NCBI RefSeq assembly: GCF_902686445.1 | Contig: NC_062220.1 | Location: 114,190,643-114,254,642 of the forward strand | Origin: Sciurus carolinensis | Taxonomy: Eukaryota; Chordata; Mammalia; Rodentia; Sciuridae | Reading direction: 5' to 3' | DNA: 64,000 nt | Shown here: piece after piece, positions 1 through 60,386 of the stretch | Position numbering within the stretch: the stretch's first letter is position 1 | Layout: every line of letters begins with the position of its first letter | Program-made: the position numbers and the translations under genes | Notes under the pieces: generated by a model | Told to the model about the DNA's origin: nothing | The model's input: the letters and a program-made list of their open reading frames with translations, nothing else | Database searches by the model: none

Positions 1-1232
1 CGAAGTATAGTCCCAATCTGTATCATGATTAATCAACCATTGTAATTGTTTAACAGTATAGGGAGTAATAATAAACCTTGGATGTGTCCCAAATGTAGAT
101 ATGCAGCTTTCTATGCCTTTGAATATTAGCTGGGACACAACTTGGGGTAGGATTGAAGCACCTTAGAGGGAGAACTAGGCAAATTAAGGTTACATAAGGG
201 ACCCCCCTGCCAGATAATACCTGATGGACTGCGTGCTTCCGGGATGACAATAAATGACAGGGGTTGAGTTAAATCACAGCGAGATACCTGACAAGATTTT
301 AGACGTTCCTGAACTAGCTGAATAGCCTGTCTAGCTTCAGGTGTGAGAACTCTTATAGAATTTAAGTTAGGATCTCCCTTGAGCAAATCAAAGAGAGGCT
401 TCAGCTCTCCTGTAGATAGTTTCAGATAAGGCCTAATCCAATTGATGTCTCCCAATAACTTTTGAAAATCATTAAGCATCTTTAAGTGATCTATTTTTAT
501 GGTAAGTTTTAAAGGTTGTACTATAGTAGCTGATAATTTAGTTCCCAAATAGTCTTGTAGATTTCCTGTTTGTATTTTGTCTGGGGCGATAATTAGACTC
601 CACGATGCCAATTCTTTGGTTATAAGTATTAAAGATTTCTTTAAAAGGGCTATTTCTTTATGGCATAAGAGGATATCATCCATGTAATGATAAATTAAAA
701 GCTGTTTAAATCTTTCTCGAGTGGATTTTAAAGCTTTATCCACATAAATCTGGCACAAGGTAGGACTATTAGCCATACCTTGGGGCAATACAACCCATTT
801 AAATCTTTGATCAGGTTGAGCATGATTGATAGAGGGTAAGGTGAAAGCGAATCTCCAGCAATCACTTTTATGTAAAGGTATGGAGAAGAAACAGTCTTTT
901 ATATCAATAATAATAGTAGGCCATCCTTTGGGCAGAGCTGAAACTAAAGGCAGGCCACATTGAATGGGCCCCATAGGGTACATCTGATCATTAATTGCTC
1001 TGAGATCATGAAGCAGTCTCCATTTCCCTGATTTCTTTTTAATAACAAAAATAGGTGTATTCCAAGGAGAGGTAGAAGGTTGAACATGACCAGCATCAAG
1101 CTGTTCCCTGACTAGATTTTGGGCAGCCTCTAATTTTTCTTTGGTTAGGGGCCACTGAGGTATCCATCGAGGCTTATCATCTTTCCAAATTATTGGAATT
1201 TTATCTGTTTCAGTGGCCCCTAGGAAAAACCC
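1..1232 (-). pseudogene. pol: pol, reverse transcriptase part (truncated by window, frameshifted)
   Basis: The frame entered from the pro-pol slippery site (1226-1232) encodes the N-terminal reverse transcriptase fingers and palm. Visible landmarks are LPQGMANSP, the catalytic YMDD near 690-700 in YHYMDDILLCH, and the connection region after it. Compared with the second provirus, a single base is missing at about 139-142 (gacacaactt against gacacagcatt), so this frame stops at 126 and the following pol sequence (1-135) continues in another frame. RNase H and integrase lie outside the window. Product if intact: RT/RNase H/integrase made as a Gag-Pro-Pol fusion. The deletion makes this copy non-functional for pol. 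Confidence 0.92.
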
Positions 1233-2119
1233 AGCCCTGTGGTATTAACTTTTGGGATAGGTATACTTGAAGGGGAAGTATTACCTTGATTGTGTTTGCC
1301 TAAACCTTTTCCTTCTTTATACCCCATATGTTGTAACATATTTTTAATTGGGGTACCTTTATAGATTTGATCAGTAGTTAGTTTAACATCCATTTGTTGT
1401 AAAATATCCCTTCCCCATAGGGAGATGGGTAAATTACATACATATGGCTGAAATATTCCAGAATGACCTTCATTATCTTTCCATTGTAAGGAAGCTGCAC
1501 TCTGGTCAGGACTGGAAGCTACGCCCAGTCCTCTTAGGGTCTGGTTGGCTGTAACAAGTGGCCAGCCTTTTGGCCAGTCATTGGAAGAGATAATGCTTTT
1601 ATCTGCTCCTGTATCTAATAATCCTGTAAATTCCTTTCCCCCTATGGTAAGTTTTAATAATGGACGGTCCCCAAGATTCATAGTGAAGCAAGCAAAAGGA
1701 TCCCCAGCAGATCCAAATTCTTGAGATCCCCTAATTTTATCGCTTCTGGACCATAGGGTATGATTACTTGGTAGAATTAACATCTGAGCAATTTGATCTC
1801 CCGGAGATATTACTGTAATTCCTCTTGGAGATGAAACCATAATTTTTACTTTTTCCTCAAAATTAGAATTAATAACCCCTGGATGAACTATAAGTCCCTT
1901 TAGAATAGTTGAGCTTCTTCCTAATAATAGTCCTACTGAATTTTGTGGTATTTTGTCATTCCAATCCAAATCTATCATTTGAACTCCCATATCAGGAGTT
2001 AAGACCAGTCTGGAGGTGGCACAGATGTCCAGTCCTGCATTCCCTTTAGTAGCTCTGGATTCCCTCCTTTCTCCGTAGGGGGGTACCATTGCCTTGGAAC
2101 CTGTTGAATTACCCCGCAA
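1220..2119 (-). CDS. pro: pro: dUTPase + aspartic protease + G-patch (left provirus)
   Basis: This 299-codon frame is reached by -1 frameshifting from gag; the TTG at 2117-2119 is not a real start. Residues about 28-140 carry the five dUTPase motifs (GLDICA; GRSS; HPGVINSNFEEK; PGDQIAQM; RGSQEFGSAG), for hydrolysis of dUTP to dUMP. In motif 3 the usual Asp is Asn here (GVIN) but Asp in the other provirus (GVID), and the usual Tyr is Phe. The retroviral protease follows, with active-site DTG at residues 169-171 (LLDTGADKS) and a WGRDIL segment. A C-terminal G-patch (about 259-280, GYKEGKGLGK) is a known betaretroviral feature. The frame is open throughout and the family fit is strong. Confidence 0.92.
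   Translation of the reverse strand: MRGNSTGSKAMVPPYGERRESRATKGNAGLDICATSRLVLTPDMGVQMIDLDWNDKIPQNSVGLLLGRSSTILKGLIVHPGVINSNFEEKVKIMVSSPRGITVISPGDQIAQMLILPSNHTLWSRSDKIRGSQEFGSAGDPFACFTMNLGDRPLLKLTIGGKEFTGLLDTGADKSIISSNDWPKGWPLVTANQTLRGLGVASSPDQSAASLQWKDNEGHSGIFQPYVCNLPISLWGRDILQQMDVKLTTDQIYKGTPIKNMLQHMGYKEGKGLGKHNQGNTSPSSIPIPKVNTTGLGFS
1226..1232 (-). promoter_or_regulatory. pro-pol -1 frameshift slippery site G GGT TTT (left provirus)
   Basis: On the minus strand the heptamer GGGTTTT is split by the pro frame as G GGT TTT, the X XXY YYZ pattern. The pro stop codon (1220-1222) follows two codons later, and the -1 frame continues open into reverse transcriptase. The same site occurs in the second provirus. 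Confidence 0.85.
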
Positions 2120-3743
2120 ATTGTTGTGGGCCCCGGGGTAGGCCCTGCTTCCCGTTTTTTGTCAGTCTTGGGTTAGGTCCTAAATAATTACCATTTTTGT
2201 CCCTAACTGATTGGCACATATTTGCCCAATGATTACCCTTTTTACATCTAGGACATAAACCTGGATTACATGGTTTTTGAGTCTTTTTATTTGGACAATT
2301 GACTTTGTAATGTCCAAATTGTCCACAAAGAAAGCAAGTCCTGGAAGTTATTTTATATGATGGGTTGGTATTATAGGGTTTTTGTAACCCTTGTACAATG
2401 GCTGAAGCTAACACTTGTCCCTGGATGGTAGAATCATTTATATCCCTGCAAATTTTTAAATATGCAGATAAATCTTTATTTTTCCAGGGTCTAATGGCCT
2501 CTTTACACCATTTATTAGCTTGTTCATATGTTAGTTGTTTGACCAAAGGCATAGCTTGATCAGCTTCCCCAAAGATTCGACTAGCTGTTTGTATTAGTCT
2601 GTCTACAAAATCTGCATATGGTTCATTAGAACCTTGTATTACTTTAGACAATTGACCTTGTAGATCCCCTGAGCCTTGAAGAGTTCTCCAAGCCTTTATG
2701 GCGGCAGTAGCAATTTGTTGGTATACTGCAGGAGGATATTGAATTTGAGCTTGAATATTATCATATTGCCCTTGCCCTGTGAGCATATCTATGTTCCAAT
2801 CAGGATTGCCCGCTGCTGCATTTCTTCTGGCTGTATCTAAACAGATCTCATGGTGAGTTGTTTTCCACATTAAATATTGCCCACCAGTCAAAGTAGCCCT
2901 AGCTAAATTTTCCCAATCTCTAGGGATCAAATTTAAAGATGAAATAGTCTCTACAAGTGACATGGTGAATGCAGCTTGAGGGCCATAAGTACCAGCTGCT
3001 TCTTTTAATTGTTTTATTAATTTAAAATCCAGCGGTTGGTGATATCTCTGATTTTGTGGATTTTCAAATACGGGAAAACAAGAACTAGTATTGGGCTCAC
3101 ATTCCTTCCAGGATTGTTTTAGGGGGTTCTCTGGGTAATTATATTCAGGAAGAGGCACTTTAGGAGGTTCCTTGGGCTCCGGGAAATTAAACTGTATATT
3201 GGAGCCATAGGATGGTGGAATTGATTGTGGTAATGGGCTATTAGAGGATTTTTGTATGTTAAAACTAAAGTTTTTAAGCGAAGGATATATTTTCTTACTA
3301 CCAGGTGGCGCCAACTGTATATCATTGACCCTTGGTTCAGGTTCCTCATCTGATAGTTCCTTTTCTGACTCGCTTTGGTCAGATTTAAGGGGAGGAAAGG
3401 AACATAACGATCTTTGTTCTTTTACTTCCTCCAAAATATTATTTCCTTCATTTAGAGGGGGTTGAAATTTCTCTTTTTGTGAGGTCAAACAACCTTTTAC
3501 AAGAGACCATATAGCCAAGGTGCCAACAGGTAATATTTCCTGTTGATCAGCTTTAAGTAAGTCTTCACCCAAGTGTTCCCATTGTGGGACATTTAATAAT
3601 CCTTTATCTAAAAACCAAGGAGATATATTTTCCACTGTCTGTAAAAATTTTCTTGCTGAGGAGGCCTTTAAGGGTGTTCCATTGATTTTTAAAAGAGCAT
3701 TTAAAGGCCCCTCCATATGGGCTCTAGACATTTCTGAACCCAT
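2109..3743 (-). CDS. gag: gag polyprotein, intact 544 codons (left provirus)
   Basis: Structural polyprotein of the virion core, starting at ATG 3741-3743 and ending at TAA 2109-2111. The N-terminus MGSEMS fits an N-myristoylation signal (Gly2 with Ser6), as expected for plasma-membrane-targeted betaretroviruses. PPSY at residues 176-179 is a PPxY late-budding motif in a proline-rich region. The capsid holds a major homology region around QGSNEPYADFVDRL. The nucleocapsid has two CCHC zinc knuckles (CFLCGQFGHYKVNC, about 470-483; CPRCKKGNHWANMC, about 497-510). The slippery site lies about 17 codons before the stop. No internal stop or frameshift, unlike gag of the complete provirus, where the equivalent frame is broken. 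Confidence 0.94.
   Translation of the reverse strand: MGSEMSRAHMEGPLNALLKINGTPLKASSARKFLQTVENISPWFLDKGLLNVPQWEHLGEDLLKADQQEILPVGTLAIWSLVKGCLTSQKEKFQPPLNEGNNILEEVKEQRSLCSFPPLKSDQSESEKELSDEEPEPRVNDIQLAPPGSKKIYPSLKNFSFNIQKSSNSPLPQSIPPSYGSNIQFNFPEPKEPPKVPLPEYNYPENPLKQSWKECEPNTSSCFPVFENPQNQRYHQPLDFKLIKQLKEAAGTYGPQAAFTMSLVETISSLNLIPRDWENLARATLTGGQYLMWKTTHHEICLDTARRNAAAGNPDWNIDMLTGQGQYDNIQAQIQYPPAVYQQIATAAIKAWRTLQGSGDLQGQLSKVIQGSNEPYADFVDRLIQTASRIFGEADQAMPLVKQLTYEQANKWCKEAIRPWKNKDLSAYLKICRDINDSTIQGQVLASAIVQGLQKPYNTNPSYKITSRTCFLCGQFGHYKVNCPNKKTQKPCNPGLCPRCKKGNHWANMCQSVRDKNGNYLGPNPRLTKNGKQGLPRGPQQFAG
2154..2160 (-). promoter_or_regulatory. gag-pro -1 frameshift slippery site A AAA AAC (left provirus)
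   Basis: On the minus strand AAAAAAC is read in gag as A AAA AAC, the slippery heptamer also used at the MMTV gag-pro junction. A GC-rich stretch (2130-2151 on the plus strand) follows and could fold as the stimulatory structure. The -1 frame runs uninterrupted into dUTPase in this copy. Confidence 0.88.
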
Positions 3744-4440
3744 TGTTTTAGTAGTACTGATGGAAACAACGCGGAGAAAAGAGATACCACCAATTTTAAT
3801 GAATCAGATTTATTGTTTTTTCCCTGCTTTTTGTCTCTTTGTTCTAGTTATAATGGCCACCCTCTGTGTGCCTGTTTTTAATTTAAATGGACCGCTTTTC
3901 TGCGTGTCCTCGGACTTCTTTTAAGGAGTCCTGATTGCTTGTTTGTGATTGTAGTTGCTTTACTGTGATACTTTTATTAACTGGACCGCTTTCCGCGTGT
4001 CCTAATTTAATTGCTATATTGCAATGTAATGTCCTTGGACTACCTTTTTCTGTTTAATTGCTTTATTGTAATGTAATGTAATGTCCCCGGACCACCTTCC
4101 GTGAGTCCTGATAGTCGCTTTATCGCGAACTTTCACTTTAATTGGACTACTTTTCGTATGTCCTGATAATTGTAATGTAATGTCCCTGGACCACCCTTTT
4201 AATCGCTTTATTGTGATGTAATATTAAGGCTGCCTTTATTACTATTTTATTTTTATAACATTAATCTATAAAACTTATTATAACATTAATCTTAAAAATT
4301 TAATCTTAAAAACTTATTATAACTTTAATCTTAAAAACTATTTATAATATTAATCTTAAAAACTTATTATAACTTTAATCTTAAAAACTTAATCTTAAAA
4401 ACTTATTATAACTTTAATCTTAAAAACTTAATCTTAAAAA
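3744..4440 (-). other. proviral 5' leader with GGAC/GTCC hairpin units and a TTTTTAAGATTAA array
   Basis: Untranslated leader between the splice donor and gag, unusually long (about 700 bp). Its distal half (4245-4440) is a degenerate tandem array of an AT-rich unit, aatcttaaaaactt on the plus strand. Its proximal half has at least five short units beginning ggac and ending gtcc (3889-3909, 3912-3931, 3983-4002, 4089-4108, 4144-4163), each able to form a small hairpin. Roles in packaging or translation are possible but only inferred. No ORF of note is present. Confidence 0.75.
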
Positions 4441-4443
4441 CTT

Positions 4444-4445
4444 AC
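4444..4445 (-). promoter_or_regulatory. major splice donor (left provirus)
   Basis: On the minus strand the sequence reads CTACCTAG|GTAAGTTTTT, a near-perfect 5' splice site just downstream of the primer binding site. It is where the major donor for spliced env RNA sits in retroviruses. GT is at 4445-4444. Confidence 0.7.
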
Positions 4446-4461: not shown

Positions 4462-4501
4462 GATCTAGAGGTCCCTGGTTCGTTCCCGGGTTTCGGCACC
4501 A
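4462..4501 (-). promoter_or_regulatory. Primer binding site for tRNA-Phe, extended to about 40 nt
   Basis: The canonical 18-nt PBS (4484-4501; minus strand TGGTGCCGAAACCCGGGA) is complementary to the 3' end of tRNA-Phe. On the plus strand, homology to tRNA-Phe continues without a gap to 4462, covering tRNA positions 37-76. Only two mismatches occur: A43 to G (4468) and A58 to T (4483). Position 58 is the conserved m1A. The PBS lies 2 nt from the LTR end. tRNA numbering is from memory of human tRNA-Phe(GAA). Confidence 0.9.
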
Positions 4502-4503
4502 AA

Positions 4504-5121
4504 TGTCGCGTTCCTTCTGCCCGCAGAGAGAGACACAACACATCAGTTGTTCATCAGAGCTCTTTATTCTTCTCTCTTCCTCCTCTGATCATCCTCTGAT
4601 GATCCTCTGATGATCTTACAAGGCAGTTACAGTCATATTTATATGAATCATGAGCCAATCAGGTTACAGAGGATGTGGGGAGAGCAAGATTACAATGTAG
4701 TACAAAACGGGGTAAAAAGAGGGTACACAGAAGAACAAGATTTCAATTTAATGTATCAAGAGAGTTCATGATGGGCATGGGTCACTTCATCCAATCAGAG
4801 CAATTCTTTTTGGTACTGGCTTAGTGCCGGGGCAGCTTCCTTAAGCAGTGTCAGCTATTTGTTGCAAACCAGGCCGCCCCGGCTCAGCGCCAGGTTGCTC
4901 TGGCTTAGTGCCAGACTGAAAGTCCTTGATGTTGCAAACCAGGTTGCCCCGGCTTAGTGCCAGTGTGGAAGTCCTTGTCAGCGTTTGTTGCAAACCAGGT
5001 TGCCCCGGCTTAGTGCCAGGTTCCACACTGAAGTCCTTGATGTTACAATCCACTGTCTCGGCATTAGGGCCACACTGAAATCCTGAAAGCCAGGCTAGGA
5101 TGGGGTCTGCAGCCCCCAACA
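4504..5121 (-). repeat. 5' LTR of left provirus (618 bp)
   Basis: Runs TG...CA on the minus strand: it begins TGTTGGGGGCTGCAGACC at 5121 and ends GGAACGCGACA at 4504. TATAAATA is at 4643-4636 and the poly(A) signal AATAAA at 4568-4563, followed by a short R-U5. U3 (about 4800-5090) contains at least three repeats of a roughly 33-bp unit containing gttgcaaaccagg...cccggcttagtgccag (4861-4893, 4931-4963, 4987-5018), probably enhancer repeats. Both LTR ends are closely similar to those of the LTRs at 35577 and 44463. Confidence 0.93.
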
Positions 5122-13950: not shown

Positions 13951-14292
13951 AAGACAGTCGATTAGGAAAACAAGACAGACGGAACATTACAGTTTTGAAA
14001 GGACTTGTTCAGAGGCAGGAGGGAAAGCCAGTTCCACAGCAACCCCGGCAGCCTCCCTCAATGTCTGTGATTGACTGCCAGCCACCAACCTCCAGCCTGG
14101 GGGGAAGGAGCAGCTCTGCGAGGCAGGCACTCCACAGGGCCAGCACGTGAAGGGAGGCCACCTCCACTTCAAGAGCTGCTTGTCCCAGGTCCATGCTCCA
14201 CGTACTCCCTGGAGAAAAACTGCAGTCCTTTACTACTTGATGTGGAGACCTGGCTGGACATTTTCCAGGTATTGTATGGGCTTAAGTCATTA

Positions 14293-14799
<507 letters not shown>

Positions 14800-25163: not shown

Positions 25164-25300
25164 TTTTTTTTTTTTAATTTTGTTGTTGTTGTTGGACCTT
25201 TATTTTATTTATTTATATGTGGTGCTGAGGATCGAACCCAGTGCCTCACACATGCTAGGCAAGAGCTCTTCTACCACTGAGCTACGACCCCAGCTCCAGA
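25164..25300 (-). repeat. ID-type SINE
   Basis: Poly-T start and 'tggtgctgaggatcgaacccagtgcctcacacatgctaggcaagagctcttctaccactgagctac', the reverse complement of an ID element. Confidence 0.9.
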
Positions 25301-31397: not shown

Positions 31398-31491
31398 TTA
31401 TGGGGATATAGCTCAGTTGGCAGAGTGCTTGCCTCTCAAGCACAAGGCCCTGGGTTCAATCCCCAGCACCCAAAAAAAAAAAAAAAAAAAG
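31398..31491 (+). repeat. ID-type SINE with intact pol III boxes
   Basis: ggggatatagctcagttggcagagtgcttgcctctcaagcacaaggccctgggttcaatccccagcacc plus an A18 tail. A box (tagctcagttgg) and B box (ggttcaatccc) are intact. It is tRNA-like but is a SINE, not a tRNA gene. Confidence 0.92.
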
Positions 31492-35140: not shown

Positions 35141-35235
35141 GGGTTGGAGATGTAGCTCAGTGGTGAGCACTTACCTAGCATGCATGAGATCCTGGTTTCA
35201 ACTCCTAGCACTTCCTAGCACCCCTCGCCTCCAAA
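35141..35235 (+). repeat. ID-type SINE
   Basis: gggttggagatgtagctcagtggtgagcacttacctagcatgcatgag.... Confidence 0.88.
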
Positions 35236-35259: not shown

Positions 35260-35576
35260 GAAAATAGTCAAAAGGTGGAAGCAACCTGAATATGTACAAT
35301 GAAAGAATGGATTAATAAAATGTGATTTAAACAAGCATGGAATGCTGCTCAGCCTTGAAAAGGAAGGACATTCTGACACAGCAGGGATGAACCTCAAGGG
35401 CACTACTCCAGGTGAAATTAAAAACACCACAAAAGGTCAAATACTGTCTGACTTCACTTACATGAGGTCCCCAGAGTAGTCAAATTCATAAACAAGAGTA
35501 GAAAGGGGTTTCCCACCCAAAAGCCTACAGGGGGCGATGTTCAATGTAATGTTCGATGTAATGAGTACAGAGCTTC
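35260..35576 (+). mobile_element. Old L1 3' UTR, left half (split by provirus)
   Basis: gaatggattaataaaatgtg, 'ggaatgctgctcagccttgaaaaggaaggacattctgacac', 'gatgaacctcaagggcactac' and 'actgtctgacttcacttacatgaggtcc' follow the L1 3' end. The sequence resumes at 45194 after the provirus (aacagtgctggtgtctgcacaccatcattaatgtgttc). Confidence 0.8.
35571..35576. repeat. Target site duplication of complete provirus, left copy
   Basis: agcttc immediately before LTR TG; the identical hexamer is at 45188-45193. Six bases is the usual length for class II retroviruses. Confidence 0.95.
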
Positions 35577-36301
35577 TGTCGCGTTCCTTCTGCCCGCAGA
35601 GAGAAACACGACACCTCAGTTGTTCATCAGAGCTCTTTATCCTCAGATGATCATGATGATGAATGAATTTACAAGGCAGTTACAGTCATATTTATATGAA
35701 TCATGAGACAATCAGGTTACAGAGTACAATAGTAAGATTACAATATTACATATCAAAAGGTACATAGTGGGCACAGATACAAGAAGGTACAGAAGAACAA
35801 TCAGTTATAGAATATGCGGGGAGAGCAAGATTACAATATAATACAATCAGAGTAATTAAAGAGCGCGTGCAAGCATGAGTCACTTTTGTCTAATCAAAGC
35901 AGTTCTTCTTGGCCCTGGCTTAATGCCGGGGCCGCTTTCTTAGATAGCATCCGCTGCTGGCTTAGTGCCGGGGCCAGTTCTTACGGTAGTATCAGTCATA
36001 TGTTGCAAACCAGGCTGCCCCGGCTTAGTGCCAGTCCTTAATGTTGCAGTCTGTGTTGCCCCGGCTCAATGCCAGGGTACAGTCCTTGTTGCAATCTGTG
36101 TTGCCCCGGCTCAATGCCAGGGTACAGTCTTTGATCAGTGTTAGCCAACTGGCTCAGCGCCGGGGCTCCTTCTACAAGCAATGTCAGCTGTCTGTAGCAA
36201 TTCTTTGTCTCAGCATCAGGGCTACACTGATGTCCTGCATCAGGGCCACACTGAAATCCTCAAGCCAGGCTAGGCTAGGATGGGGTCTGCAGCCCCCAAC
36301 A
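35577..36301 (-). repeat. 3' LTR of complete provirus (725 bp)
   Basis: TG...CA on the minus strand. TATAAATA is at 35696-35689. Where the left provirus has AATAAA, this LTR reads GATAAA. U3 carries two tandem units of about 40 bp (around 36049-36127) containing gttgccccggctcaatgccagg. Differences from the 5' LTR: acggt/atggt, gtcttt/gtcctt and ccaaca/ccgaca. Confidence 0.96.
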
Positions 36302-36302
36302 G

Positions 36303-36318
36303 CTCCCCCTTTCTTTTT
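36303..36318 (-). promoter_or_regulatory. Polypurine tract
   Basis: The minus strand reads AAAAAGAAAGGGGGAG, two bases before the 3' LTR TG. This is the plus-strand primer site. Confidence 0.9.
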
Positions 36319-36344
36319 ATTTAAAAAAGAAAAGGCTTGAGACC

Positions 36345-36500
36345 GTGCCTGTCTTAGGTTGAGGGGTCGAGCACATGTCCTTACCCGTCTTTGAATACTG
36401 TAGAGCATGCTACAGCACCCGTCTTTGAATACCGTAGAGCATGCTACAGCTTCTGTCTTAGGTTGGTACATGGCCACCTCCTACATTACCCGTTATCGGC
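36345..36500 (-). promoter_or_regulatory. CTE-like RNA export element
   Basis: On the minus strand, between env and the PPT, the order is AACGGGTAATG (about 36495), AACCTAAGACAG (36464-36453), a hairpin, CAAAGACGGGT (36427-36417), a second near-identical hairpin (CTGTAGCATGCTCTACAG type), CAAAGACGGGTAA (36393-36381) and CCTAAGACAGG (36358-36348). The repeated CCTAAGACAG and CAAAGACGGGTAA words are the internal-loop motifs of the Mason-Pfizer type D constitutive transport element, which binds NXF1/TAP and exports unspliced RNA. Here one hairpin plus the GACGGG loop motif is tandemly duplicated (about 33 bp). Motif recognition is from memory. Confidence 0.85.
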
Positions 36501-36685
36501 TTCCGGTCTAGCACTGCAGGTAGGTTAGGTAACAGATGAAGATGCTGGACAAGGCGATGGTGTAGGTAAGTGTTATTGAAGGCACATAAGTAAAATTGGA
36601 GCTTTTCTTTGTGGCTGGAAAAAAGAAGAGGCAAGGCCGTACCTGCAGGAGAGACTGAAGCTGGAAAATAGTTATCAAAAGAAGA

Positions 36686-38614
36686 TTAAACTTTGTGTTG
36701 GTGAATTATCATCATGGCCTGAATAGTGTCAAGTCTAAGTCTTATGAAATGGATTAATTTATTAAAAATACATGGCCCGAAAATCAGAATTAAGAGTAGG
36801 ATGATAAGGGGGCCAGTTATAGTGGATAGGAGGGTGGTGAGCCAAGGAGATTTATAAAACCAATGCTCAAACCATCCTTGTTGGGATTCAAATTCTTTTT
36901 GTCTCTTAGCTAATCTCTCAGTGACTTTTTCCATGGTTTCTCTGACTACTCCAGTATGGTCTGTATAGAAGCAACATTGTTCTTTTATAGCTACACAAAG
37001 GCCGCCTTCACGCAAGAAGAGTAAATCTAAGCCTCTTCTATTTTGTAAAACAACCTCTGACAGGGAGGTCAGAGATTTTTCTAGTGCAGAAATAGATTTT
37101 GCCATAGCTGCTAAGTCTTCATTCATAGCTGTTTGCAGAAGTAACAATTGGTTTTTATGTACAAAGGCGGCAGTTCCAGTCCCTATGCCTGCAGCTATCC
37201 CACCTATGCCCAGAAGGAGGGCTATAGTCATACTAATAGGTTCCCTAGGGTATCGATTACGTCCTTCAAGTGACCCTAACACATAGTCGGATGTTAAATA
37301 GGAAATACTAGGCCATAATTGGATTAATACACAAAAATCGGAACTAAAGTTTAAAACTGTGGTAGATATGCAAGGAGTTAGTCCTGTACTACAAGCCCAA
37401 TAAGTTCCACTTGGGCCCCAAAGATAATGGTTATCTTTATTATTATTAGCTAAAGTAAAATTAATACTACATAAATGTGAGTGAGAAGGGGGTATATTCC
37501 CTATACAAAGTCCTTGTCCGGAGATTTTTGTGATGGTAAGCTTGGAGCTAGGTAAAATGGCACATTTAGGATCAGGTTTACTACTATAATTCCAAAAAAT
37601 ATTTATGGCAATTCCTTCATAATAAGGAGGACTGGAAGTAAGACACAACCAGCATTCTTTGGTTCGGTTAGGATAAGTATGATTAAGAGCATAAAAAGCA
37701 CTATTGATTAGGTTAAATAAACGATTTTCAGAACTAAGAGTGGCAGGCATAGTTTTGAGTGAAATATCAGTTTTAGGATAAATAGAAGGAGTGATAATTG
37801 GGGCAATTGGTTGTTTAAATAAATGAAGTATAGATTGAGAAGGAGGTCTTTGATCTATAAGTACTGTATTAGGTCCTACAGCTATCGGAACAGTATTTTG
37901 TTGTAGTTTAATAGTGAACCAAAGGCCAAAATCACATCTGGGAGCATAAAATCGGAGACCCCAAGTTCTTCCTTTAAGCCAGTGGGGTAAATTATTTTCA
38001 TTTTTTCCTTGATTAGAAAAGGAAATATTTAATGGATTGCAGAGAAAATTAGAGCCGCAAATGGTTTGTGATAATTTGGATGCATAACAATTATCTTTAC
38101 CTGAAGGGGTAAAATTACGGTGTACCGTAATCCAATCCCAGGTGGACGAAAGGTTCCAATATGTGTCCCCTGTAGTTTCACATCCCCAGGTAGCACAGAA
38201 AAAGGACTCTATGTCCCCACATAATTTCTTTTGTTGGGGGTTTCGGCCATCTTTGGGGCAAACATAAAAGTCTGTGTTTCCAAGAAAGCATCTACGTTGT
38301 GGGTTTTGACACCCCTTATGGATCCACCCTTCTCCTAAATTATTACGGGGATAATTTTTTATCCTAATATTGGGATTTTTATTTTCTGGTGAATCCCAGG
38401 TGTCCACTCCAATAGTTAGTTGACATATGTCTGGGTGTAGAGTTGGCCACCATGTTCCGAGGGCATGTACATCCTCCACTGACCAGACTACTTTACCAGT
38501 CTGGGAATAAACTTGCCATGTGAGAGATATAGGGATATGGGGATTAATTCCTGATGTCAGGAAGGGAAGTAGTAGATGTAGGATTACCCTCCGGAACAGT
38601 ATCAGAGGTGTCAT
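36686..38614 (-). CDS. env: env, intact gamma-type envelope glycoprotein (642 codons)
   Basis: Envelope precursor with an N-terminal signal peptide (about 1-21), a cysteine-rich SU with many N-x-S/T sites and the CXXC motif CWLC (321-324), and a minimal furin-type site RYPR (454-457). TM follows: a hydrophobic Gly/Ala-rich fusion peptide (about 458-484), the immunosuppressive-type segment LQNRRGLDLLFLREGGLC (523-540), CX6CC (540-548), a membrane span (about 596-618) and a short tail. CXXC plus CX6CC marks gamma-type, covalently linked SU-TM, as in type D viruses, not the MMTV/HERV-K type. The start overlaps the pol end by 71 bp. No stop or frameshift. Expression would come from spliced RNA using the donor at 44423-44424. 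Confidence 0.95.
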   Translation of the reverse strand: MTPLILFRRVILHLLLPFLTSGINPHIPISLTWQVYSQTGKVVWSVEDVHALGTWWPTLHPDICQLTIGVDTWDSPENKNPNIRIKNYPRNNLGEGWIHKGCQNPQRRCFLGNTDFYVCPKDGRNPQQKKLCGDIESFFCATWGCETTGDTYWNLSSTWDWITVHRNFTPSGKDNCYASKLSQTICGSNFLCNPLNISFSNQGKNENNLPHWLKGRTWGLRFYAPRCDFGLWFTIKLQQNTVPIAVGPNTVLIDQRPPSQSILHLFKQPIAPIITPSIYPKTDISLKTMPATLSSENRLFNLINSAFYALNHTYPNRTKECWLCLTSSPPYYEGIAINIFWNYSSKPDPKCAILPSSKLTITKISGQGLCIGNIPPSHSHLCSINFTLANNNKDNHYLWGPSGTYWACSTGLTPCISTTVLNFSSDFCVLIQLWPSISYLTSDYVLGSLEGRNRYPREPISMTIALLLGIGGIAAGIGTGTAAFVHKNQLLLLQTAMNEDLAAMAKSISALEKSLTSLSEVVLQNRRGLDLLFLREGGLCVAIKEQCCFYTDHTGVVRETMEKVTERLAKRQKEFESQQGWFEHWFYKSPWLTTLLSTITGPLIILLLILIFGPCIFNKLIHFIRLRLDTIQAMMIIHQHKV

Positions 38615-41171
38615 CTTCAGTGGAGGCTTGTGCAGGCACCGCGGTGATTCGTATCAGTCGTTCTGGGACCCACACTGGAACTTGTTGATCCTGTGGAAAA
38701 ACACAAACAGACCCTCGGACCCTACGGAGAACAGGGTCTGGACCCTTCCATTGTCCAGTGAGGACATCTTTCCACTTGACCCATGGTTGAGGAGGGGAAT
38801 TAGGAGAACTATGACAGTCAGCAGCTGAACGCCCATTGTCATCTGATGTTAAAAAATTTAAAATGAAGAGAACTATGTTAAGTTTATCCCTGGGGGATCT
38901 ATAGGAGACTCCAATGCCTCCTTTTTGTTTTAATAATTGATTTTTGAGAGTAAGGTGGGCGCGTTCAATGATACCTTGGCCTTGAGGGTTGTAGGGAATT
39001 CCAGTTACCAATTGTATGGCAAATGTATCAGCAAAATGTTTAAAACTTTTAGAGGTATAAGCAGGTCCATTATCTGTTTTAATAATTTTTGGAATGCCCC
39101 AACAAGCAAATGTTTGTAAACAATGTTGAATAACATTGTTTACTTTCTCTCCGGTTAAAGGAGAGGCCATAATAACTCCTGAATATGTGTCAATAGACAC
39201 ATGGACATACTTTAGATTCCCAAATTCAGGGATATGAGTGACATCCATTTGCCAAATATGATTAGGCAAAAGACCACGTGGATTTACTCCAAGTGATTGA
39301 ACTGGAATAGGAGGTGCACAGTTTTGACAATCTTTGACTATTTGTCTGGCAATATCTTTTGAAATAGGAAATTTTCTGCGTAGGGTAGTGGAATTTACAT
39401 GAAATTTATCATGGAAAAGTTTGGCCTGTTCTGTAACAGAGAATACATAGGTTGCTTTAGTGGCTATATCAGCTAAGTTACTGCCTTTTGTTAAAGGTCC
39501 AGGCAGTTTGGTATGAGCTCTAATATGACCTACATAAAAGGGATGGGATCGCTCATGGATCAATTGTTGTAAGCTATTAAAATAGGAGGTAATGGTAGAG
39601 TGTTGAGAAATATAAGGCACTGTTTCTAACACAGCTAATGAATTTTTAACATAACAGCTATCAGTAAGTAAATTAAATGGTTTATCTTTTAATAATTTAA
39701 AAGCTAGTATAACTGCAGCTAATTCAGCAATTTGGGCAGAAGAGGCTGGAATAATAGGTATGTACTTCTTTATTATTACAACTCCAGATCCATTTTTGGA
39801 TCCATCAGTAAACACTATAACACCTTCTATTATGGGATTAACCTTCGTTATTTTTGGGAAAATAACAGGAGTGTTTAAACAAAATTGAATCCAGGGATGT
39901 TTAGGATAATGATTATCAAATTTTGCATTTGTAGTACATTGAAGTATATCCCAGTCTGTATCATTATTAATCAACCATAGTAATTGTTTAACAGTATAGG
40001 GAGTAATAATAAACCTTGGATGTGTCCCAAACGTAGAAATGCAGCTTTCTATGCCTTTAAATATTAGCTGGGACACAGCATTGGGGTAGGATTGAAGCAC
40101 CTTAGAGGGAGAACTAGGCAAATTAAGGGTACATAAGGGACCCCCTTGCCAGATAATACCTGATGGACTGTGTGCTTCCGGAATGACAATAAATGACAGG
40201 GGTTGAGTTAAATCACAGCGAGATACCTGACAAGATTTTAGACGTTCTTGAACTAGCTGAATCGCCTGTCTGGCTTCAGGTGTGAGAACTCTTATAGAAT
40301 TTAAGTTAGGATCTCCCTTGAGCAAATCAAAGAGAGGCTTCAGCTCTCCTGTAGATAGTTTCAGATAAGGCCTAATCCAATTGATGTCTCCCAATAACTT
40401 TTGAAAATCATTAAGCGTGTTTAAGTGATCTATTCTTATGGTAAGTTTTAAAGGTTGTACTGTAGTAGCTGATAATTTAGTTCCTAAATAGTCTTGTAAA
40501 TTTCCTGTTTGTATTTTGTTTGGGGCAATAATTAGACTCCATGATGCCAATTCTTTGGTAATAAATATCAAAGATTCTTTTAAAAGGGCTATTTCTTTAT
40601 GGCATAAGAGGATATCATCCATGTAATGATAAATTAAAAGTTGTTTAAATCTTTCTCGGGTAGATTTTAAAGCTTTATCCACATAAATTTGGCACAAGGT
40701 AGGACTATTAGCCATACCTTGGGGCAATACAACCCATTCAAATCTTTGATCAGGTTGAGCATGATTGATAGAGGGTAAGGTGAAAGCAAATCTCCAGCAA
40801 TCATTTTTATGTAAAGGTATGGAGAAAAAACAATCTTTTATATCAATAATAATAGTAGGCCATCCTTTGGGCAGAGCTGAAACTAAAGGTAGGCCACATT
40901 GAATGGGCCCCATAGGGTACATCTGATCATTAATTGCTCTGAGATCATGAAGCAGTCTCCATTTCCCTGATTTCTTTTTAATAACAAAAATAGGTGTATT
41001 CCAAGGAGAGGTAGAAGGTTGGACATGACCTGCATCAAGCTGTTCTCTGACTAGATTTTGGGCAGCCTCTAATTTTTCTTTGGTCAGGGGCCACTGAGGT
41101 ATCCATCGAGGCTTATCATCTTTCCAAATTATTGGAATTTTATCTGTTTCAGTGGCCCCTAGGAAAAACCC
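38544..41171 (-). CDS. pol: pol: RT-RNase H-integrase, intact from slippery site
   Basis: About 876 codons open from the slippery site; the ATG at 40922 is internal. RT has LPQGMANSP and YMDD (in YHYMDDILLC). RNase H shows TDGS, the Glu of AELAAV and the Asp of LLTDSCYV. Integrase has an HHCC zinc domain (FHDKFH ... CQNC) and catalytic D,D,E (MDVTHIPEF; KTDNGPAYT; PQGQGIIERAH), with a C-terminal WVKWKDVLTGQWKGP segment. All catalytic residues I looked for are present. Synthesis would need both -1 frameshifts; the upstream gag/pro lesions of this copy should prevent it in cis. Confidence 0.95.
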   Translation of the reverse strand, partial: GFFLGATETDKIPIIWKDDKPRWIPQWPLTKEKLEAAQNLVREQLDAGHVQPSTSPWNTPIFVIKKKSGKWRLLHDLRAINDQMYPMGPIQCGLPLVSALPKGWPTIIIDIKDCFFSIPLHKNDCWRFAFTLPSINHAQPDQRFEWVVLPQGMANSPTLCQIYVDKALKSTRERFKQLLIYHYMDDILLCHKEIALLKESLIFITKELASWSLIIAPNKIQTGNLQDYLGTKLSATTVQPLKLTIRIDHLNTLNDFQKLLGDINWIRPYLKLSTGELKPLFDLLKGDPNLNSIRVLTPEARQAIQLVQERLKSCQVSRCDLTQPLSFIVIPEAHSPSGIIWQGGPLCTLNLPSSPSKVLQSYPNAVSQLIFKGIESCISTFGTHPRFIITPYTVKQLLWLINNDTDWDILQCTTNAKFDNHYPKHPWIQFCLNTPVIFPKITKVNPIIEGVIVFTDGSKNGSGVVIIKKYIPIIPASSAQIAELAAVILAFKLLKDKPFNLLTDSCYVKNSLAVLETVPYISQHSTITSYFNSLQQLIHERSHPFYVGHIRAHTKLPGPLTKGSNLADIATKATYVFSVTEQAKLFHDKFHVNSTTLRRKFPISKDIARQIVKDCQNCAPPIPVQSLGVNPRGLLPNHIWQMDVTHIPEFGNLKYVHVSIDTYSGVIMASPLTGEKVNNVIQHCLQTFACWGIPKIIKTDNGPAYTSKSFKHFADTFAIQLVTGIPYNPQGQGIIERAHLTLKNQLLKQKGGIGVSYRSPRDKLNIVLFILNFLTSDDNGRSAADCHSSPNSPPQPWVKWKDVLTGQWKGPDPVLRRVRGSVCVFPQDQQVPVWVPERLIRITAVPAQASTEDDTSDTVPEGNPTSTTSLPDIRN

Positions 41172-42028
41172 AGTCCTGTGGTATTAGTTTTTGGAATAGG
41201 TATACTTGGAGGGGAAGTATTACCTTGATTGTGCTTGCCTAATCCTTTTCCTTCTTTATACCCCATATGTTGTAACATATTTTTAATTGGGGTACCTTTA
41301 TAGATTTGATCAGTAGTTAATTTAACATCCATTTGTTGTAAAATATCCCTTCCCCATAGGGAGATGGGTAAATTACATACATATGGCTGAAATATTCCAG
41401 AATGACCTTCATTATCTTTCCATTGTAAGGAAGCTGCACTCTGGTCAGGACTGGAAGCTACGCCCAGTCCTCTTAGGGTCTGGTTGGCTGTAACAAGTGG
41501 CCAGCCTTTTGGCCAGTCATTGGAAGAGATAATGCTTTTATCTGCTCCTGTATCTAATAATCCTGTAAATTCCTTTCCCCCTATGGTAAGTTTTAATAAT
41601 GGACGGTCCCCAAGATTCATAGTGAAGCAAGCAAAAGGATCCCCAGTAGATTTAAATTCTTGAGATCCCCTAATTTTATCGTTTCTGGACCATAGGGTAT
41701 GATTACTTGGTAGAATTAACATTTGAGCAATTTGATCTCCTGGAGATATTACTGTAATTCCTCTAGGAGATGAAACCATAATTTTTACTTTTTCCTCAAA
41801 ATTAGAATCAATAACCCCTGGATGAACTATAAGTCCTTTTAGGGTAGGTGAACTTTTACCTAATAAAAGTTCAACCGAATTTTGTGGTATTTTGTCATTC
41901 CAATCTGAATCTATCATTTGAACTCCCATATCAGGAGTTAAGACCAGTCTGGAGGTGGCACAGATGTCCAGTCCTGCGTTCCCTTTAGTAGCTCTGGATT
42001 CCCTCCTTTCTCCGTAGGGGGGTACCAT
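41159..42028 (-). CDS. pro: pro: dUTPase + protease + G-patch (complete provirus)
   Basis: Open frame of 289 codons from an internal ATG; the true protein would start upstream by frameshifting. Motifs: dUTPase GLDICA, GKSS, HPGVIDSNFEEK (motif 3 Asp kept), PGDQIAQM and RGSQEFKSTG; protease DTG in LLDTGADKS; G-patch GYKEGKGLGK. The block corresponding to left-provirus positions 1306-1707 is nearly identical, whereas the dUTPase half differs at about 5 percent. Upstream, an extra base near 42055 puts this frame out of register with the -1 frame entered at the slippery site. Confidence 0.92.
   Translation of the reverse strand: MVPPYGERRESRATKGNAGLDICATSRLVLTPDMGVQMIDSDWNDKIPQNSVELLLGKSSPTLKGLIVHPGVIDSNFEEKVKIMVSSPRGITVISPGDQIAQMLILPSNHTLWSRNDKIRGSQEFKSTGDPFACFTMNLGDRPLLKLTIGGKEFTGLLDTGADKSIISSNDWPKGWPLVTANQTLRGLGVASSPDQSAASLQWKDNEGHSGIFQPYVCNLPISLWGRDILQQMDVKLTTDQIYKGTPIKNMLQHMGYKEGKGLGKHNQGNTSPPSIPIPKTNTTGLGFS
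41165..41171 (-). promoter_or_regulatory. pro-pol slippery site G GGT TTT
   Basis: GGGTTTT read as G GGT TTT in pro, with the pro stop at 41159-41161; the -1 frame leads into RT. Identical to the site in the left provirus. Confidence 0.85.
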
Positions 42029-43684
42029 TGCCTTAGAACCTGTTGAATTACCCTGTAAATTTGTTGTGGGCCCCAGGGTAGGCCCTGCTTCCCGTTTTTT
42101 GTCAGTCTTGGGTTAGGTCCTAAATAATTACCATTTTTATCCTTAACTGATTGGCATACACTTGTCCAATGATTACCCTTTTTACATCTAGGACATAGCC
42201 CTGGTTTTAGATTTTTATTTTGAGTTTTATTAGGACAATTAGTTTTGTAATGTCCAAATTGTCCACAAAGAAAGCAAGTTCTGGAGGTTATTTTATATGA
42301 TGGGTTGGTATTATAGGGTTTTTGTAACCCTTGTACAATGGCTGAAGCCAACACTTGTCCCTGAATAGTAGAATCATTTATATCTCTGCAAACCTTTAAA
42401 TAGGCAGATAAATCTTTAGTTTTCCAGGGTCTAATGGCTTCCTTACACCATTTGTTAGCTTGTTCATATGCTAATTGCTTGATCAAGGGCATAGCTTGAT
42501 CAACTTCCCCAAAGATTCGACTAGCTGTTTGTATTAGTCTGTCTACAAAATCTGCATATGGTTCATTAGAACCTTGTATTACTTTAGATAATTGACCTTG
42601 TAAATCCCCTGAGCCTTGAAGAGTTCTCCAGGCTCTTACTGCGGCAGTAGCAATTTGTTGATACACCGCGGGAGGATATTGAACTTGAGCCTGAATATCA
42701 TCATATTGTCCTTGCCCTGTGAGCATTTCTATATTCCATGCAGGATTGCCTGCTGCTGCATTCCTTCTGGCTGTATCTAAACAAATCTCTTGGTGAGTTG
42801 TTTTCCACATTAAATATTGCCCACCAGTCAAAGTAGCCCTAGCTAAATTCTCCCAATCTCTAGGGATCAAGTTTGAAGATGAAATAGTCTCTACAAGTGA
42901 CATAGTGAATGCAGCTTGAGGACCATAAGTACTAGCTGCTTCTTTTAATTGCTTTATTAATTTAAAATCTAATGGTTGATGATACCTCTGATTTTGTGGA
43001 TTTTCAAATACAGGAAAACAAGAATTAGTATTGGGTTCATGTTTCCACCAAGGTTGCTTTGAGGGGTTTTCTGGGTAATATGGATTATATTCAGGAAGAG
43101 GTACCTTAGGAGGTTCCTCAGGTCCCGAAGGGGCAGGAGGAAAGAAATTGGGACTGTATATTAGAACCATAGGATGGTGGAACTAATTGTGGCACTTTAA
43201 AACTAAAGTCTTTAAGTGAAGGATACAATTTCTCACCACTAGGTGGTGCCGACTGTATATTGTCGGCTCTTGGTTTAGGTTCCTCATCTGATAATTCCTC
43301 CCCTGACTCAGAATGGTTAGATTTAATGGGAGGAAAGGAACACAATGACCTTTGTTCCTTCACTTCCTCTAGGATATTATTTCCTTCATCTAGAGGGGGT
43401 TGAAATTTCTCTTTTTTCTTTGAAGTTAAACAGTCTTTTACAAGAGACCATATAGCTAAAGTGCCAGCAGGTAATTTTTCTTGTTGATCAATTTTAAATA
43501 ATTCTTCACCCAATTGTTCCCATTGTGGGATATCTAATAATCCTGTATCTAAAAACCAAGGAGATATAATTTCTACTGTTTGTAAAAATTTCCTTGCCAT
43601 TGAGGCTTTTAAAGGTGTACCATTAATTCTTAAAAGAGCATTTAAAGGCCCTTCCATACGAGCTCTAGATATTTCTGAACCCAT
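41938..43684 (-). pseudogene. gag: gag, frameshifted (complete provirus)
   Basis: Two overlapping open pieces. 43118-43684 has the myristoylation-type MGSEIS start, matrix and the PPSY late motif; 41938-43170 has capsid, major homology region and two CCHC knuckles (CFLCGQFGHYKTNC; CPRCKKGNHWTSVC). Compared with the intact gag at 2109-3743, the frame changes in the proline-rich linker after PPSYGSNIQ, where a larger insertion is present. An additional base near 42055 also removes the normal gag stop, so the second piece reads on about 57 codons to 41938 in an unrelated frame. Confidence 0.92.
42094..42100 (-). promoter_or_regulatory. gag-pro slippery site A AAA AAC
   Basis: Same heptamer as in the left provirus, but the -1 frame here meets a TAA after 16 codons because of the extra base near 42055. 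The site is intact; its downstream path is blocked. Confidence 0.85.
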
Positions 43685-44422
43685 ATTCTAGTTGTTTTGT
43701 CTAATTGAATCGGCGCAAAGAAAAGAGACACCAGTTTAATAAATCAGTTTTATTGCGTCCTTCCTATTTTTTGTTCCTTTATTCTATAGCTATTATGACC
43801 GCCTTTTGTGTGCCCTTGGACTTTTTAATAAGTCCTGATCGCTTTTTTGCGATTGTAATCACTTATTATTACTTTTAATTGGACCGTTTTACACGTGTCC
43901 TTTTTTAATTATTATAATGTCCCTGGACTACCTTTCTCTGTTTAATTGCTTTGTAATGTCCCCGGACCACCCTCCGTGTGTCCTAATTGTCGCGAACTTT
44001 CACTTTAATTGGACTACTTTTCGTATGTTCTGATAATTATAATGTAATGTTAAGGCTGCCTTTATTTCTTTTATATCATTTATCTATAAGACTTATTATT
44101 ACATTAATCTTAAAAATTTAATCTTAAAAACTATTTAAAACTTTAATCTTAAAAACTTTATTATAACTTTAACCTTAAAAATATTTATTCTTAAAAACTT
44201 ACTATAATATTAATCTTAAAAAACTTAAACTTAAAAACTATTTTAAAAACTTTAACCTTAAAAACATTTAATCTTAAAAACTTATAATATTAGTCTTAAA
44301 AAACTTAAACTTAAAAACTTACTATAATATTAATCTTAAAAAACTTAAACTTAAAAACTTATAATATTAATCTTAAAAACTTAATCTTAAAAAATTTATT
44401 ATAATTTTAATCTTAAAAACTT
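43685..44422 (-). other. proviral leader with hairpin units and AT-rich array (complete provirus)
   Basis: Same two-part layout as in the left provirus. Units beginning ggac and ending gtcc occur at 43818-43835, 43881-43900 and 43964-43983, with a decayed one at about 44011-44030. A degenerate array of the aatcttaaaaactt unit spans about 44085-44420, longer and more reshuffled than in the left copy. No ORF. Confidence 0.75.
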
Positions 44423-44424
44423 AC
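44423..44424 (-). promoter_or_regulatory. major splice donor (complete provirus)
   Basis: The minus strand reads ACCTAG|GTAAGTTTTT, a strong 5' splice site just after the PBS. Confidence 0.7.
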
Positions 44425-44436
44425 CTAGGTAGTTGC

Positions 44437-44459
44437 TTCGTTCCCGGGTTTCGGCACCA
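44437..44459 (-). promoter_or_regulatory. Primer binding site for tRNA-Phe (complete provirus)
   Basis: The 18-nt core is 44442-44459, three bases from the LTR end. Five more bases (44437-44441) also follow tRNA-Phe, including T at the place of A58. Compared with the left provirus, 21 bp further along the tRNA-like tract are absent. Confidence 0.9.
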
Positions 44460-44462
44460 GAA

Positions 44463-45187
44463 TGTCGCGTTCCTTCTGCCCGCAGAGAGAAACACGACAC
44501 CTCAGTTGTTCATCAGAGCTCTTTATCCTCAGATGATCATGATGATGAATGAATTTACAAGGCAGTTACAGTCATATTTATATGAATCATGAGACAATCA
44601 GGTTACAGAGTACAATAGTAAGATTACAATATTACATATCAAAAGGTACATAGTGGGCACAGATACAAGAAGGTACAGAAGAACAATCAGTTATAGAATA
44701 TGCGGGGAGAGCAAGATTACAATATAATACAATCAGAGTAATTAAAGAGCGCGTGCAAGCATGAGTCACTTTTGTCTAATCAAAGCAGTTCTTCTTGGCC
44801 CTGGCTTAATGCCGGGGCCGCTTTCTTAGATAGCATCCGCTGCTGGCTTAGTGCCGGGGCCAGTTCTTATGGTAGTATCAGTCATATGTTGCAAACCAGG
44901 CTGCCCCGGCTTAGTGCCAGTCCTTAATGTTGCAGTCTGTGTTGCCCCGGCTCAATGCCAGGGTACAGTCCTTGTTGCAATCTGTGTTGCCCCGGCTCAA
45001 TGCCAGGGTACAGTCCTTGATCAGTGTTAGCCAACTGGCTCAGCGCCGGGGCTCCTTCTACAAGCAATGTCAGCTGTCTGTAGCAATTCTTTGTCTCAGC
45101 ATCAGGGCTACACTGATGTCCTGCATCAGGGCCACACTGAAATCCTCAAGCCAGGCTAGGCTAGGATGGGGTCTGCAGCCCCCGACA
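44463..45187 (-). repeat. 5' LTR of complete provirus (725 bp)
   Basis: Starts TGTCGGGGGC at 45187 on the minus strand and ends GCGACA at 44463. TATAAATA is at 44582-44575, and the poly(A) hexamer is GATAAA (about 44526-44521). U3 tandem units sit around 44935-45010. It would drive transcription toward lower coordinates. Confidence 0.96.
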
Positions 45188-45193
45188 AGCTTC
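45188..45193. repeat. Target site duplication of complete provirus, right copy
   Basis: agcttc, identical to 35571-35576. Confidence 0.95.
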
Positions 45194-48470: not shown

Positions 48471-48562
48471 TGGGCTGGGGAGGTAGCTCAGTTGGTAATA
48501 GTGCTTGCCTTATAAGCACAGGGCCCTGGGTTCGATCCCCAGCACCAAAAAAAAAAAAAAAA
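48471..48562 (+). repeat. ID-type SINE with intact pol III boxes
   Basis: gggctggggaggtagctcagttggtaatagtgcttgcc...ggttcgatccccagcacc plus an A18 tail. The B box ggttcgatccc is perfect. Confidence 0.92.
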
Positions 48563-51861: not shown

Positions 51862-51960
51862 TCTTTTTTTTTTTTTTTTTTTTTTTGTGGTGCTGGGGAT
51901 TAAACCTAGGACCTTGTGCTTGCAAGGCAAGCGCTCTACCAACTGAGCTATATCCCAGCC
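51862..51960 (-). repeat. ID-type SINE with poly-A tail
   Basis: T22 followed by tggtgctggggattaaacctaggaccttgtgcttgcaaggcaagcgctctaccaactgagctatatcccagcc. Confidence 0.92.
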
Positions 51961-60295: not shown

Positions 60296-60386
60296 ACTAG
60301 GGATGTAGCTCAGTTGGTAGAGTGCCTGCCTCATGTGCTCAAGGCCCTGGGTTCAATCCCCAGCACCAAAAAAAAAAAAAAAAAAG
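60296..60386 (+). repeat. ID-type SINE with intact pol III boxes
   Basis: ctagggatgtagctcagttggtagagtgcctgcc...ggttcaatccccagcacc plus an A17 tail. Confidence 0.92.

Follow-up and report, generated by a model that had tools for sequence, protein, structure and literature searches.

The genome of Sciurus carolinensis seems to keep a record of reverse transcriptase (RT) running past the m1A58 stop of a primer tRNA. In the 64,000-nt stretch of DNA analyzed here (the window), a rodent-type endogenous retrovirus (ERV) carries a 40-nt tract in which the primer-binding site (PBS) continues, without a break, into further complement of tRNA-Phe. The explanation that we consider best overall, and to which we assign a probability of roughly 0.7, is that the primer was read through past m1A58 and the resulting tail joined to the viral leader, and that partial losses and rewriting of the base at 58 followed. 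A PBS is normally 18 nt long because m1A58, which mammalian tRNA-Phe presumably carries, stops the plus strand.

The 40-nt tRNA-Phe Tract

Sequence comparison aligns tRNA-Phe nucleotides 37–76, including CCA, with window positions 4462–4501 on the plus strand. The viral sense is the minus strand, on which the PBS runs from 4501 to 4484 and the tract continues directly to 4462. When the host assembly (2.8 Gb) was queried with the mammalian tRNA-Phe sequence, one gene (L031) was identical to the query at 73 of 73 positions and was called tRNA-Phe(GAA) by ARAGORN; a second ARAGORN tRNA-Phe gene (L032) is 72 nt long, with a T arm one base short. Of the 40 positions of the tract, 38 agree with L031; the other two (tRNA sense) are A>T at position 58 (window 4483) and A>G at position 43 (window 4468). 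The original prediction had given this match with these coordinates and two mismatches, and had proposed checking the host genes for T58 and G43; both genes found have A58 and A43, so neither is a variant that would account for the mismatches. A 32-nt core taken from the tract is found only once within the window, and none of 100 dinucleotide-preserving shuffles gave a match at three or fewer mismatches. The tract is real. Its features and those of a second, related ERV copy are as follows.

Copy 1
126..1244, minus strand: start of pol, with RT and thumb (Pfam); the window ends within copy 1
1223..2161, minus strand: pro, with dUTPase, aspartyl protease and G-patch (Pfam)
2112..3803, minus strand: gag, with p10, p24 and zinc knuckles (Pfam)
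4252..4444, minus strand: AT-rich tandem-repeat leader, between a splice-donor-like site and gag
4462..4483, minus strand: tRNA-derived extension, complementary to tRNA 58–37 at 20 of 22 positions (comparison with the tRNA and with copies L117–L129)
4468..4468, minus strand: position 43, C in viral sense, specific to one subfamily; T, the tRNA match, in the other long subfamily
4483..4483, minus strand: site opposite m1A58, A in viral sense; six states genome-wide
4484..4501, minus strand: PBS, 18 nt, perfect complement of the tRNA-Phe 3' end (59–76; sequence and L031)
4502..4503, minus strand: 2-nt spacer between the 5' LTR end (..ACA) and the PBS
4504..5121, minus strand: 5' LTR; the matching 3' LTR lies outside the window

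Copy 2
35571–35576 and 45188–45193: 6-bp target duplication, AGCTTC
35577–36301, minus strand: 3' LTR
36689..43687, minus strand: coding frames for a gamma-type env, pol, pro and gag (Pfam)
44437..44441, minus strand: short extension, A opposite 58 and then tRNA 57–54 only
44442..44459, minus strand: PBS, identical 18 nt
44463..45187, minus strand: 5' LTR

The tRNA query returned 36 rows, 25 of which span exactly tRNA 37–73 and two more 39–73 and 41–73; the remaining nine comprise the two genes along with partial or weaker matches. Among these matches are copies of the 5' part of tRNA-Phe alone (L036, 1–42; L037, 1–44; L039, 1–38; L051, 5–37), three of which (L036, L039, and L051) have short repeated flanks, as expected of retro-inserted tRNA 5' halves. 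They are the mirror of the ERV tract. A list in the accessible text of PMC13191261 gives yW37 for tRNA-Phe of mouse T cells, and the primer tRNAs listed there with m1A58 do not name Phe.

Two Related Proviruses in the Window

Copy 2 (35571–45193) is a young full-length relative about 30 kb from copy 1 and in the same orientation. Its LTRs are 99.45% identical over a 728-column alignment, with three mismatches and one gap, which dates the insertion to about 0.5–0.9 My when substitution rates of 2.2–4.5e-9 are used. Its gag is split between two frames. Across 3.9 kb that takes in gag, pro, and the first part of pol, the two copies share 91.3% identity, and in both pro combines a dUTPase, a retroviral protease, and a G-patch (Pfam). 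Betaretroviral gag p10/p24 and CCHC knuckles are also present (Pfam), and copy 2 env matches TLV_coat (Pfam, E 1.2e-179); env of copy 1 lies outside the window. Placed by these domains, the family is a type-D-like betaretroviral one; we say "like" and do not file it as a type D member because its PBS is that of tRNA-Phe and not the tRNA-Lys PBS of betaretroviruses. The leader arrays (4252–4444 and 44104–44423) lie between the donor and gag, consist of short AT-rich units with periods of about 14, 25, and more, and differ in length from copy to copy. The CTAG/GTAAGT 3' of the tract in copy 1 is presumably this splice donor, judging from the general motif.

Relative to copy 1, copy 2 lacks 21 nt corresponding to tRNA 53–37 and four leader bases, AGCA. 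The base at 58 is the same in both, so this base and the long tract are separable, contrary to the expectation that one event produced both.

Six tRNA-like elements lie elsewhere in the window on both strands (25217–25292, 31402–31472, 35146–35216, 48483–48543, 51885–51957, and 60304–60365); they are probably SINEs and, with the tRNA-Ala call, point to a rodent host, as ID-type SINEs would. An open frame on the minus strand (14290–14799) resembles what we assume to be an exon of a SEC14-like gene.

Subfamilies and the End of the Tract

Copies were gathered by searches with both window PBS regions, tRNA-Phe, and one subfamily member, together with fetched pieces. The classed set comprises 99 distinct copies with a PBS (a place listed under several locus ids was counted once), recognized by a finder that allowed up to four substitutions and no indels; three later additions (L130–L132) stand outside the 99. 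Seven loci were dropped for having no recognizable PBS (L016, L019, L020, and L023–L026) and others for not being ERV copies (L031, L032, L036–L039, and L051). The tRNA query ranks hits by likeness to the tRNA and thus over-represents T at 58, so genome-wide counts were taken from pattern searches, which detect only copies free of other decay inside the pattern and miss decayed ones.

The copies fall into seven classes. F1 (18 of 99) has the long tract and the change at 43, and F2 (26 of 99) the long tract with the tRNA base at 43; L097, L098, and L101 were filed under F1 by their base at 43, yet have F2-like spacers. F3 is the short class (20 of 99). The tRNA match extends to 49 in F4 (11 of 99) and is followed by a different middle piece. 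In F5 (12 of 99) it ends at 48–45 (at 41 in L092), followed by a second partial PBS, recognizable or decayed, and then the leader, and in F5d (1 of 99) a tail to 45 is followed by the leader. Empty copies make up the remaining 11. Genome-wide, an exact PBS followed by the tRNA complement to 49 occurs at 57 places (slot 58 open; CpG decay at 57/56 allowed), as was expected if many copies share the tract, and the idea that it is unique to one copy is ruled out.

Walking along the tRNA complement from 57, the tract ends at 37 in 40 of the 44 F1/F2 copies and at 39, 39, 44, and 47 in the other four. None of the 44 continues into tRNA 36–32, and AGCAG follows directly in 39. A sharp end at 37/38 had been predicted and is found, with the qualification that base 37 itself is ambiguous: the junction between tail and leader reads CAGCAGC, so that the C at 37 can be assigned to either. 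The C may therefore be of leader origin, in which case the last base copied would be 38, just short of the hypermodified one, instead of 37.

The tRNA is matched at every position from 57 to 37 in 18 of the 26 F2 copies, so the change at 43 is a lineage change. Ten of these 18 have an exact PBS and A in the slot, 58 being their only difference from the tRNA; three have an exact PBS and T and match at all 40 positions; and five have a PBS change or an AT slot. The ends at 54, 49, 48–45, and 41 in other classes could reflect later deletions rather than RT stops. The F3 extensions to 54 may be overruns to m5U54 or deletions, deletion being the simpler reading because F3 lacks leader bases common to the empty copies, F1, F2, and several F5 copies.

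Nine copies (L103, L105–L107, L111, L112, and L114–L116) carry a tandem duplicate of a tRNA-derived unit (57/58 to 47). The duplication occurs in two different subfamilies and ends one base before position 46, where we assume m7G46 to be a candidate cause. LTR/PBS type and gag type are reshuffled among subfamilies, with an F4 PBS beside an F1-like gag in L086 and L090, which points to frequent recombination between subfamilies. The LTR and gag trees differ in topology, their signal being blurred by recombination and, in the LTR region, by tandem repeats as well; comparison of LTR ends and leaders to polarize the classes gave a weak gradient only.

Empty Copies and the Gain of the Tract

A second partial PBS (ACCCGGGA-like) lies within the leader of L017 (the same place as L077), L092, and L108–L110, as if transfer had landed twice. 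After the tRNA tail, L108–L110 and L092 have (A)CCCGGGA-like bases, the same with which the PBS ends, followed by AGACAACAAACCAGCAGC, with one change in L109 and one base fewer in L092. If the tail landed back inside the PBS, the ancestor is predicted to have had its PBS joined straight to AGACAACAAACC. A search for this empty state, with a pattern that contains the A after the PBS and tolerates up to three mismatches, found 10 exact places, three with one mismatch, and three with two or three; the reversed-pattern control found three places. The 13 best (L117–L129), which represent 11 distinct pieces, all carry the family LTR end together with the leader AGCAGCAACTACCTAGGTAAG, in which no more than one base is changed, and A directly follows the PBS in all 13.

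Since the empty state was predicted beforehand and then found, we conclude that the tract is a gain, and a long tract ancestral to the whole family is ruled out. That the empty state is the earlier one is argued from the leader that follows the second PBS piece. Some empty copies could be secondary losses by way of the repeated ACCCGGGA (L108–L110), with exact loss of the tract. These data fit a single capture with subsequent deletions as well as several captures.

The Site Opposite m1A58

The base opposite m1A58 was surveyed genome-wide with the exact PBS and the tRNA complement to 49, leaving 58 open and allowing CpG decay at 57 (and at 56 too in the version with one extra base). At the 43 places without an insertion, the viral base is A in 36, T (the correct complement) in six, G in one, and C in none; the 14 places with one extra base read AT (six), AG (six), or AA (two). 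The site thus has six states among 57 places, and the reversed-pattern controls of both searches found nothing. Within the 99 copies, T occurs in F1 (one), F2 (five), and F5 (one), G in F2 and F3 (one each), and AG in eight F4 copies; AT is found in five copies with F2-type flanks (three filed under F2 and two under F1) and in three F3 copies. The three later additions are of F5 type, one with AT and two with AA.

The T copies have A copies among their nearest relatives and fall into at least three separate clusters. A tree of 62 copies built from LTRs, L047 being excluded for its very long branch, requires 13 changes for the five states (minimum four) and five for T against the rest; within F2, the best tree has four T changes, of which well-supported branches force one only. 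A census that allowed a single mismatch comprised 50 places, 29 exact and 21 with one change. The changes were T>A (five) and T>C (one) at 58, CpG-type at 57 (seven), and eight at all other positions together; five of the eight transversions fall at 58 among 28 positions, a binomial probability of about 3e-6 if the copies are treated as independent, which they are not. The 88 captured copies that were classed all have a 1- or 2-nt slot. To find CGAACCAGG (CGAA in the short class) in them at up to two mismatches, no further indel had to be assumed, with a finder to which indels within the PBS are invisible.

The original prediction explained the internal change by a single event, which the six states and their scatter rule out: position 58 is a rewritten site and not a frozen scar. 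Recurrence of T in separate clusters is as expected of repeated RT passage past m1A58. That the A at 58 is a misincorporation agrees with its being the commonest state (36 of 57), but A is also the first leader base of the fetched empty copies, and the founding A could thus have been inherited. With a library-preparation RT in vitro, the context 5'-m1A-U-3' is described as giving very efficient misincorporation of dATP (accessible text of PMC4787781). Since U59 follows A58 in the host tRNA, a misinserted base would be expected to be A, which is also the state most often observed.

Variability after the PBS may be general and not special to the long tract. The exact tRNA-Phe PBS occurs at 1,763 places in the host genome, and we sampled 20 (L133–L152, 16 on one contig and four on another) among the 100 matches listed. 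CGAACC follows the PBS in none of the 20. One to three bases after the PBS vary in these Phe-primed ERVs, with AC, AG, or GG before ATGAA and CC, CCC, or AC before TCGA; in L138, CC is followed by TCGAA, the complement of tRNA 58–54 shifted by two bases. General variability would widen the interest of the site and weaken its link to the long tract.

Proposed Mechanism and Alternatives

We hypothesize that, in an ancestor of the family, plus-strand strong-stop DNA passed m1A58 of the tRNA-Phe primer and copying continued through the T arm, the variable loop, and the 3' side of the anticodon stem to position 38 or 37. Instead of being trimmed, this excess tail of about 20 nt would have been joined to the leader (F1/F2) or, alternatively, have landed back inside the PBS (F5, L092), so that the provirus gained primer complement beyond the 18-nt PBS. 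Later lineages would have lost parts of the tract, as far as 54 in window copy 2, or duplicated them, and passages of m1A58 would have rewritten 58 by substitution (A, T, G) or by a one-base stutter (AT, AG, AA). The orientation, the collinearity with the PBS, the end at 37/38, the lack of tRNA 36–32, and the empty state are observed, and use of the primer as plus-strand template predicts exactly this orientation and collinearity. From them we infer RT copying of the primer as the source and a block at the hypermodified base 37 as what set the end. By analogy with lentiviruses, the tract probably then acted as a primer over-extension sequence, along which a read-through tail still anneals to the minus strand and with which read-through would no longer be lethal; annealing of later overruns along the tract would explain why 58 goes on changing. 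The central idea of the original prediction, read-through of the primer to 37/38, thus survives, whereas its view of 58 as a single frozen scar does not.

The tail might instead have been copied from a cleaved primer, a tRNA-Phe 3' half beginning at 37/38 from whose 5' end RT ran off, and the end point would then be uninformative about a block at yW37. Cleavage in the anticodon loop is well known to yield tRNA halves, and both the exact end, including a base matching 37, and the four 5'-part copies described above, which suggest that tRNA-Phe broken near the anticodon loop enters germline RT, agree with this source. Those copies are explained equally well as products of RT arrest in another pathway, the leader C matches 37 so that the end may be 38, and copies with shorter ends exist; we regard cleavage as rather improbable, at something over one chance in five. 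Capture of a tRNA gene or pseudogene beside the PBS as DNA, or slow, selected growth of complementarity, has nothing beyond the similarity itself in its favor. The tract is collinear with the PBS and stops at 37 with neither tRNA 36–32 nor a tRNA-gene flank after it, stepwise gain of some 20 matching bases is not credible, and the empty copies point to gain as a block, so both routes seem very improbable.

Two other readings concern position 58. The A there could be the first base of the original leader if the tRNA stretch was inserted one base downstream, and we consider this possible though unlikely. A stands right after the PBS in all 13 fetched empty copies (the search pattern held this A), and AT, AG, and AA all start with A; against this, RT would have had to leave the tRNA and return to it a single base further on, and the continued change of the site (T at six of 57 places, in separate clusters) is left unexplained. 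Selection may have kept the mismatch for weaker silencing by 3' tRNA fragments, which are 22 nt long, so that 58 would be nucleotide 4, in the seed, while priming from the 18-nt PBS is untouched. The accessible text of PMC7472051 makes the case that silencing of mouse ERVs by such fragments is relieved by PBS mismatches, which are commoner in younger copies. Selection would account for retention and not for the one-base insertions or the T state, and a fragment with m1A58 would presumably not pair there anyway; this makes it a doubtful explanation, less probable than either a leader-derived A or a cleaved primer.

Within the read-through explanation, we put forward more tentatively, at somewhat under even odds, that ERVs document the tRNA epitranscriptome in the base that follows the PBS, each copy storing one germline RT event. 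T would then be a correct copy of m1A58, A or G a misinsertion, and AT, AG, or AA a stutter, and rare copies would store the next stops (m5U54, m7G46, and base 37). If so, the modification state of primer tRNAs could be read from genomes over millions of years, and the squirrel family would be one whose record reaches position 37. One genome holds, side by side, empty copies, copies with 40 nt of tRNA, partial losses, and an allele series at the blocking base; the germline fidelity of m1A58 bypass thereby becomes countable, and there is a natural test of whether long primer complementarity helps or harms an ERV.

Comparison with Known Systems

In a literature search that took in few subscription papers, none described a provirus whose PBS reaches position 37, which need not mean that no such report exists; a scan of viral contigs with the 18-mer PBS gave no matches and was uninformative. 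The domain content of the family resembles that of MPMV-like type D viruses and the Gunnison's prairie dog retrovirus (GPDRV), which share the dUTPase, protease, G-patch, and gamma-type envelope features according to the accessible text of PMC7354474. The primers differ: the PBS of GPDRV is that of tRNA-Gln (PMC7354474) and betaretroviruses are users of tRNA-Lys (accessible text of PMC3621094), whereas the squirrel family uses tRNA-Phe. A tRNA-Phe PBS in a rodent ERV has a parallel in mouse IAP/IAPE, for which the accessible part of PMC7472051 analyzes an 18-nt PBS and describes no extension. HIV-1 has an extended PBS helix of 22 bp (accessible text of PMC8096811).

The closest parallel is the primer over-extension sequence that lentiviruses and spumaviruses carry, as described in the accessible text of PMC13191261. 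There, as in the squirrel tract, complement of the primer past m1A58 directly adjoins the 18-nt PBS on its downstream side, and it is said to keep plus strands that run past m1A58 capable of transfer. That text describes overruns of m1A58 in test tubes, in cells whose m1A58 methyltransferase is mutated, and as short extensions in lentiviruses. In vitro, most plus-strand strong-stop DNA made on tRNA-Lys3 ends at m1A58, and lesser amounts end at psi55, m5U54, and hypermodified base 37 (PMC13191261); the tract ends seen here likewise include 54 and 37/38 among the stops of products P2–P5 (58, 55, 54, and 37). The lentiviral and spumaviral sequence is tied to overruns to psi55 (PMC13191261), whereas the squirrel tract runs to 37/38, lies in a betaretrovirus-like ERV primed by tRNA-Phe, shows an allele series at 58, and can be compared with an empty state. 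In the tRNA-Lys3 system only P2–P4 were active templates and P5, which ends at 37, was not (PMC13191261); in the squirrel family a tract of that length has been inherited and multiplied.
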